Assembly (NCBI GenBank): GCA_944327365.1
Contig: CALVHI010000005.1
Coordinates: forward strand, 1-42,996
Direction of reading: 5' to 3'
Source of the DNA: an uncultured Bacilli bacterium
GTDB lineage: Bacteria > Bacillota_I > Bacilli_A > RF39 > UBA660
Length of the DNA stretch: 42,996 nucleotides
A program made the position numbers and the translations under genes. The notes under the pieces are model-generated. The model searched no databases. It saw nothing but the letters and a program-made list of their open reading frames with translations, and was not told where the DNA came from. Positions 13,618 to 15,381 of the stretch are shown here, piece after piece. Within the stretch, counting starts at the first letter, position 1. The number at the start of each line of letters is the position of its first letter.

Positions 13618-15381
13618 ATGGGGAAAAACAAACAATTAATTGTAATAGTATTAAGTTTAATAGCAGTAATAGGAGTATCTTTAGCATATTTTACTGTATC
13701 ATCGTTAATAAGTGGAAATGGATCAAGTGTACAAGGGACAACGGCAACTATACAGGGAAGTACTATAACTGTAGAAGGAACACTAGAATTTAATGATTTA
13801 GATATATTACCAGGACATAAAAATGTATCAAGTATCAAGATAACTGCAACAGGAGATAATACATTAATACCATATAATGTTATATGGAATGGAGAAAATA
13901 CTCTTAATACACCCTTAAATTATACAGTATATAAAACAAGTAGTGAAATAGAAGTAGATAGTACATGTAAAGATACAAGAGAAGTAGTAGATGGGGCATA
14001 CATGTATTATGAAGAATGTGAAATAACAAACATAGAAGAGTTAGGAACAGCAATAAGTACAGGAACAATTAATACCAGTGAAGAAAAAGTAACACTAGTA
14101 AAAGATGAGTTTATCACATCAACACCATCAGGGGATGAGATGTATTACTATATTATATTAGAATATCCAAACTTAAATGAAGCTCAAAACATAGATATAG
14201 GAGGATCATTTAATGGAGAGATAACAATAGAAGAAAGTAATGTAGAACCAGATATAAATATTATAGCAGCATATATCGAACAAGAAGATGGAACATATGA
14301 AGAGGTAAGTGATATACCACAAGATGGATATATAATCAATACTGAGAAAAGTGTATGTAGTAATAATGCTGTACCTAGTTGGGATCTTACTGATAATAGT
14401 TTGAAAGTTAGCAGTTTAACCAAAAGTGGGACAAGTTGTTATTTATACTTTGAAGAAGCTACTGCAAGAGATATAATCTTAGCCGGAAAAGACATTCAAG
14501 AAAGAACAGATTTTAGTAGTGCGCTTACAACCAATACGAATGGAATAATTTATCAAGAAGAAACAAGTGATGGAACAACTTATTACTTTGCGGGAAACAC
14601 AACGGAAAACTGGGTATCTTTTGCTGGATATTACTGGCGGATCATAAGGGTAAATGAAGATGGATCAATAAGAATGATCTATAATGGAATAACAACAGAT
14701 CAGATGGGAGAAGGAACCCAACTACAGATAAGCTCATTCAATAGTTCGCGTGATAATAATGCCTATGTAGGATACATGTATACATTGGATAATGTCCACG
14801 GAACAGGAACAGATAGTGGAATAAAGAAGATAGTAGATAATTTCTATCGAGACCATATTGCTGGAAAATTTGAACATTATATTAGTAAAGAAGCAGGATT
14901 CTGTGGAGATAGGACAAGAAGTACAAGTGAAAGTTCACTCAATAATTCAGGAGGAACGGGAACAACACAAACTTATTATGGAGCATATATCAGACTAGAA
15001 ACAAATAAAACGCCAACCTTTGAATGTAGTGATGAAGCATATGACTTGTATACCGCACAAGAAAGCAGTAAAGGCAATCATGCTTTAACGTATCCAATTG
15101 GACTCATCACAGCCGATGAAGTAGCTTATGCCGGAGGAGTAAATGGAAGTAGCAATAGTAGTTATTACCTATGTACAAACCAAGATTACTGGACGATGTC
15201 TCCATACGATTTTTTTACTCTTGGCTATGCTAGCGCGTTCCTTATGAATAGCAATGGTAGCCTCACTTGGAGCAATGTGAATGTCACGGATGGTGTGCGC
15301 CCAGTATTAAATCTGGATGCTGGTGTAACGCTAATAGGTGATGGTACTGTTGATTTACCTTATCAAGTAGTTATGTCTTAA
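13618..15381 (+). CDS. secreted surface protein with DGR-like variable C-terminus
   Basis: This 587-residue protein starts at ATG 13618 after TAGGAG. The N-terminus (KNKQLIVIVLSLIAVIG then SLAYFT) looks like a SipW/camelysin-type signal peptide. Residues ~30-205 form a strand-rich TasA/camelysin-like region. Residues ~215-275 are a second small region with paired cysteines. Residues ~280-587 form a larger domain with AGYYWRIIRVNEDGSIRMIY and ending YPIGLITADEVAYAGG, DYWTMSPYDFF and GVRPVLNLDAG, as in C-terminal FGE/C-type-lectin-like modules of gut Firmicutes surface proteins. Residues 530-558 show a codon pattern expected of a retroelement-diversified variable region, described separately. 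Upstream codons mostly end in A; the last ~100 codons do not. It probably displays a binding domain outside the cell. The ligand is unknown. Confidence 0.85.
   Translation: MGKNKQLIVIVLSLIAVIGVSLAYFTVSSLISGNGSSVQGTTATIQGSTITVEGTLEFNDLDILPGHKNVSSIKITATGDNTLIPYNVIWNGENTLNTPLNYTVYKTSSEIEVDSTCKDTREVVDGAYMYYEECEITNIEELGTAISTGTINTSEEKVTLVKDEFITSTPSGDEMYYYIILEYPNLNEAQNIDIGGSFNGEITIEESNVEPDINIIAAYIEQEDGTYEEVSDIPQDGYIINTEKSVCSNNAVPSWDLTDNSLKVSSLTKSGTSCYLYFEEATARDIILAGKDIQERTDFSSALTTNTNGIIYQEETSDGTTYYFAGNTTENWVSFAGYYWRIIRVNEDGSIRMIYNGITTDQMGEGTQLQISSFNSSRDNNAYVGYMYTLDNVHGTGTDSGIKKIVDNFYRDHIAGKFEHYISKEAGFCGDRTRSTSESSLNNSGGTGTTQTYYGAYIRLETNKTPTFECSDEAYDLYTAQESSKGNHALTYPIGLITADEVAYAGGVNGSSNSSYYLCTNQDYWTMSPYDFFTLGYASAFLMNSNGSLTWSNVNVTDGVRPVLNLDAGVTLIGDGTVDLPYQVVMS
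15190..15300 (+). other. candidate DGR variable region (VR)
   Basis: Codons 530-558 (15205-15291) contain no A at any third position: 24 of 29 end in C or T and 5 in G. The varied-looking residues (Tyr, Asp, Phe, Phe, Thr, Leu, Gly, Tyr, Ala, Ser, Phe, Leu and so on) are encoded by TAC, GAT, TTT, ACT, CTT, GGC, TAT, GCT, AGC, TTC, CTC and GTC. All are reachable from AAC or AAT by changing only the two adenines. This is the hallmark of adenine-specific mutagenesis of an Asn-rich template. The stretch is bounded by constant TGG-ACG-ATG-TCT and by a GC-richer end (GTGCGCCC) that could serve as the initiation site. No template repeat or reverse transcriptase is in the window. Confidence 0.7.

Follow-up and report, generated by a model that had tools for sequence, protein, structure and literature searches.

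A putative family of dispersed template RNA genes serving one diversity-generating retroelement reverse transcriptase in an uncultured Bacilli lineage

The templates of a diversity-generating retroelement (DGR) found in a small gut bacterium very probably form a multicopy, trans-acting RNA family that serves a single DGR reverse transcriptase (RT); we infer their transcription and activity. Each template unit stands alone, is about 255 nt long and carries a -10 box, terminators with T runs and a fold supported by covariation. The window analyzed, a stretch of 42,996 nt, is contig 5 of a draft genome (1.03 Mb in 56 contigs, 86.5% complete) and contains one of the genes that would be diversified. 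It is near certain that 15199-15303 is the variable region (VR) of a DGR target gene. The DGR reading as such, first put forward from the window alone, is near certain too, with near-copies of the region, one RT and adenine-specific variation all present in the genome.

The target gene and its variable region

The target gene (13618..15381, + strand), placed from the open-reading-frame list and its paralogues, encodes a secreted or anchored surface protein of 587 aa, with a hydrophobic segment N-terminally and the variable region C-terminally. Pfam searches of the protein returned DUF6273 only, with a score below the cut-off. The predicted model of the target domain has a pLDDT of 64 and its best structural match, a mannose-binding C-type lectin, is not significant (E 0.3), and the lectin/FGE-like fold initially suggested for this domain is a tentative assignment.

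The VR (15199..15303, + strand, codons TCT to CCA) is homologous to the template core and was delimited by alignment with the templates and with 14 paralogous VRs. The constant 5' flank of the VR (15178..15198, + strand, ending in TACTGGACGATG) is common to the paralogues in the alignment and absent from the template elements. The VR ends 78 nt upstream of the stop codon, followed by a constant, IMH-like 3' tag (15291..15329, + strand). This tag, which had been singled out as a GC-richer segment, has copies of 100% identity at four other places in the genome and is contained in an identical 45-base match at a fifth. Its first 13 bases (15291-15303) are common to the templates, while the rest is common to other target genes only; the template elements part from the target genes directly after GTGCGCCCA, into ATATCC.

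Numbering from the ATG at 13618, none of the 29 codons 530-558 (15205-15291) ends in A, as opposed to 47.6% of codons 1-529 (binomial P ~7e-9), and no 29-codon window upstream in the gene has fewer than 5 A-ending codons. NNY codons make up 83% of the same stretch and 44% of the upstream part. The sequence-only reading had held that every variable-looking residue here has a codon that A changes alone can produce from AAC/AAT. The pattern stands, yet "every" is slightly too strong, as TGG at 15268-15270 is not an NNY codon; among 44 templates of relatives, however, 8 have TGG fixed at this place, including L065, the best match to the window VR. Relative to L065, which belongs to another species, the window VR shows 9 mismatches at A and 8 at other bases, and it is among the most drifted of the 15 VRs in the genome. 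With a template match among the weakest, the window VR is probably an old one, unless the draft lacks the template that belongs to it. Elsewhere in the window, near the contig end, lies a large serine recombinase-like gene (1123-2913, - strand, 596 aa), likely a mobile element.

Searching the genome at the DNA level with 15180-15330 revealed 19 places, namely 15 target-gene ends (the window included) and four template-like elements. All 15 ends share a constant frame, YWTMSP...GVRPVLNLDAG, around the hypervariable stretch. Full-length or partial paralogues of the window gene are located on contigs C12, C48, C19, C25, C39, C16, C28, C36, C44, C50 and C46. Several of the contigs C12, C16, C19, C25, C28, C39, C44, C46 and C50 start or stop inside target genes; the repeated domain thus probably breaks the assembly and conceals further targets, and the genome is best described as containing at least 15 VRs.

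Template elements as candidate RNA genes

The four template-like elements carry AAC/AAT at the variable codons, as had been predicted for a near-copy of the window region. Three of them, at C2:5860-6115, C7:6202-6454 and C9:452-704, are intergenic and share a 3' tail that is unrelated to the target genes; we regard these as the genome's own template RNA genes. The fourth (C2:25513-25686; in its wider extent L013:3466-3745, equal to C2:25465-25744) is chimeric. It begins like a template, with the promoter, the 5' tag and a core rich in AAC, followed by a target-gene 3' end up to the stop codon and a plain terminator, and has no scaffold, which suggests recombination between a template and a target at the GTGCGCCCA point.

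The order of parts in an element is a TGnTATAAT-like -10 box, the 5' tag GGTTAATCT, an AAC/AAT-rich core, a structured 3' scaffold and terminator-like hairpins. TGnTATAAT or a similar sequence is found at a fixed distance upstream, and at the 3' end either the last hairpin runs into a T run or an extra hairpin and T run follow. From an alignment of 50 full-length elements of the genus, reaching from the -10 box through the tail, a fold of 6 helices and 41 pairs was obtained in which 97.5% of cells are paired and 29 pairs have changes on both sides. None of 500 shuffles did as well, and with partners offset by one to three columns the paired share is 30-47%. As the alignment used for scoring also yielded the structure, the percentage paired is biased in its favour, and the number of compensated pairs carries more weight. 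Helix 1 is a 9-bp stem in which the 5' tag GGTTAATCT pairs with AGATTARYC of the scaffold, spanning the whole template and joining the ends of the RNA; its replacements include U-A to A-U, A-U to U-A and U-A to C-G. At the Rfam gathering threshold the elements match no family, the only hits being tRNA and T-box in L013, L023, L024, L027, L083 and L088.

Among 44 templates of the genus, the codon within GTGTTC-NNT-GTG has an entropy of 1.87, 1.83 and 0.27 bits at its positions 1, 2 and 3, respectively. All bases occur at positions 1 and 2, T is found at position 3, AAT/AAC are among the variants, and codons 2 and 9 behave alike. The templates therefore look as if they had themselves been adenine-rewritten. 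These entropies and the chimeric element at C2:25513 hint at a reading that we advance tentatively, in which the template RNAs would be an evolving, copy-amplified library, occasionally rewritten in an adenine-specific manner or by exchange with targets, such that the programme of mutable positions would be heritable and diversifying and not an invariant master.

The MutS_I-Avd-RT operon

An RT somewhere in the genome had also been anticipated, and exactly one is found above the Pfam cut-off (C27:7388-8497). It is the last gene of a MutS_I-Avd-RT operon (C27:6680-8497) on a contig other than that of the window. The protein matches RVT_1 with 66 bits and has the motifs GLPIGNMTSQ and YVRYMDDF, in keeping with a DGR-type RT. 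Among solved structures the best-scoring relative is 8ub7 (82 bits), which we take to be the BPP-1 DGR RT complex; the next is a group II RT (49 bits). Assignment of the RT to the group II intron, Drt3a or retron St85 type was rejected, as the NCBIfam scores of 102/300, 64/200 and 40/235 bits, respectively, are all under the cut-offs. A second RVT_1 match, at C8:3869, is an integrase and not an RT.

The first gene of the operon (L011:6680-7078, on C27) encodes a protein of 133 aa with a MutS_I domain (PF01624, above the cut-off), and its leading position is conserved. The second (L011:7071-7401, on C27) is avd-like: after frame correction, its own protein matches PF22296 bAvd with E 3e-8 and 34 bits, under Pfam's 40-bit cut-off, and we accept it as an Avd homologue. 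In this draft avd has a one-base frameshift within a run of six T, which may be an assembly error, slippage or decay. In relatives all three genes are intact, the adjacent avd homologue included, and their reading frames overlap, constituting a conserved operon. Named relatives of the RT come from MAGs labelled uncultured Bacilli, Tenericutes or Mycoplasmatota, one of them being Candidatus Caccenecus avistercoris.

The template had been expected beside the RT, a position that is common in DGRs though no strict part of their definition, and this expectation failed. There is no template on contig C27, and none in 270 kb around 23 related (main-clade) RT loci. Among the places listed for 36 congeneric genomes, no template lies on the same contig as an RT match; "unlinked" applies at the contig scale only, because all of the genomes are fragmented drafts. 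That fragmentation, together with the adjoining template that related RT lineages do have, would allow for a conventional DGR in which a working template adjoins the RT and was missed by the drafts, the dispersed elements being decayed or idle. We consider this improbable given the lack of any template at the 23 loci with their flanks. Moreover, the overlapping frames leave no space for a template within the operon, and decaying copies would lose the -10 box, the terminator and the 29 compensated pairs.

Copy number and dispersal

A covariance model of the scaffold identified 217 elements in 32 of the 36 congeneric genomes, with up to 25 in one. The 99% complete relative G017 contains 11 templates and a single RT, and its long frames give 39 matches to the VR domain. 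Templates occur in 28 of 29 RT-positive genomes versus 4 of 7 genomes without a detected RT (p = 0.018, relatedness being ignored). Elements this numerous and scattered, some of them clustered in tandem, would also suit parasites of the DGR RT, that is, RT-dependent, MITE-like RNAs of little relevance to the host. Such parasitism strikes us as more improbable still, as the cores still match the constant codons of the targets in the correct frame and keep AAC where the genes vary.

Adenine specificity of the variation

The variation in the VRs is adenine-specific. When 14 VRs were compared with the consensus of 30 templates, mismatches fell on 54% of A, 13% of C, 9% of G and 4% of T. At AAY codons the VRs are changed 98 times at the first, 72 times at the second and 24 times at the third position, each out of 154. 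With templates from its own genome only, A is mismatched at 53% versus 11-19% per other base class. Because this bias is moderate, each of the 15 VRs was compared with its best match among 62 templates of the genus, pooled from several species, and base controls were added. Mismatches were found at 186 of 345 adenines and 67 of 780 other bases, or in rates at 54-56% of template adenines versus ~9% of other bases. As the best template is chosen for having the fewest non-A mismatches, the selection was repeated for each base, and only A separates (A 55.5% vs 8.8%; C 17 vs 24, G 26 vs 24, T 19 vs 23). Adenines account for 186 of 253 mismatches pooled over the 15 VRs, or 74%, which is just under the usual DGR criterion of 75% of mismatches at template A (PMC8144416).

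The poorer fit to the genome's own templates would be expected if templates are missing from the 86.5% complete draft or if the VRs are old. In the relative G017, 20 extracted VRs gave 46% at A versus 14-27%; some are near-perfect (17 A and 3 non-A mismatches), and the remaining ones are old or written from other templates.

The same data bear on gene conversion from silent cassettes, in which the elements would be archives used by ordinary recombination without reverse transcription. Homologous non-coding copies are indeed dispersed, tandem clusters exist, and templates and genes do recombine, as seen in the chimera at C2:25513. However, the VR bases that are missing from the templates fall on template adenines, and cassettes of DNA need no RNA fold, promoter, terminator or DGR-type RT, which leaves this explanation with very little probability. 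Plain diversifying selection on paralogous surface proteins, without a mutator, can draw on the large paralogous family and a variable site that is probably a binding surface, yet it is practically negligible, as third positions, the freest under selection, change least and the flat C-, G- and T-centred controls contradict it.

Proposed mechanism and comparison with known systems

For the trans-acting template family we propose the following course. A template RNA would be transcribed on its own and then fold, the pairing of the 5' tag with AGATTARYC closing the template into a loop. By analogy with BPP-1, the Avd-RT would bind this RNA via the scaffold, which would act as the BPP-1 spacer does. 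cDNA synthesis would start near the IMH end and insert bases at random wherever the template has an adenine; the product would replace the VR of any of ~15-40 target genes that have the same core and GTGCGCCCA end.

The system resembles the BPP-1 DGR (Mtd; Avd-TR-spacer-RT) in the nearest solved relative of its RT, presumably the BPP-1 enzyme. It is likewise similar in having an Avd homologue, adenine-specific rewriting of a gene 3' end and a structured RNA 3' of the template. In BPP-1, Avd-RT is recruited by a structured spacer on the 3' side of the template, which also primes cDNA synthesis (PMC12875486). BPP-1 has a single template, located in cis with avd on one side and the RT gene on the other, whereas here the templates are separate RNA genes in many scattered copies; the stem closing the RNA 5' to 3' and the MutS_I protein in the operon are also features absent in BPP-1.

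Remote DGR targets are known from Treponema denticola (PMC4891356) and from cyanobacteria including Trichodesmium, where a template RNA is reported to be highly expressed (PMC7517822). According to the accessible parts of these reports, one RT serves distant targets, as here, while the template stays in the RT core locus; in the present lineage the templates are remote and multicopy as well. In Thiohalocapsa PB-PSB1 some loci have been inferred to owe their diversification to an RT and/or template acting in trans from another site, the explanation given being duplication and disruption of whole DGR loci and not an independent family of template RNA genes (PMC10907252). Multiple templates per DGR have already been counted (PMC6642488). 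Our literature searches, whose scope excluded many subscription papers and all preprints, found no stand-alone or dispersed DGR templates; with no earlier report found, what appears to be new is a family of autonomous genes for structured template RNAs, dispersed in the genome.

Descriptions of DGRs portray a fixed cassette whose one invariant template is close to the RT, in contrast to the independent multicopy family proposed here, in which one enzyme and a family of templates would serve up to ~39 target genes within a genome of 1.3 Mb. Such a natural arrangement would be guide-RNA-like, with a compact, portable RNA scaffold directing what a mutagenic RT rewrites, and the covarying scaffold and template-closing stem offer a handle on the RNA features that recruit a DGR RT. 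Metagenomic DGR surveys search the neighbourhood of the RT for both template and target and, by their own account, miss remote targets (PMC8144416), so the DGR diversity of this lineage would be undercounted.

Possible origin and decay of the system

Elements adjoin the RT in several more distant systems (RTs 44-55% identical), namely L110, with four in tandem upstream of avd-RT, L114, L115 and L117. Genomes G089 and G231 have a template beside the RT, and G137, from another genus, has one element beside the RT and at least 11 elsewhere. A midpoint-rooted RT tree unites the 14 members of the dispersed clade with good support and sets them amid cis-template RTs. These observations fit a path that starts with a promoter-bearing template in cis and leads through tandem copies to dispersal, its direction being inferred because of the midpoint rooting. 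A search of IMG/VR for a phage carrier gave no match to the 19-base template-scaffold junction pattern, an exact pattern being a weak test.

The RT genes at G008:C6, G012:C50, G001:C47 and G006:C43 have several frame breaks while templates are still carried, which suggests that some species are losing the system.
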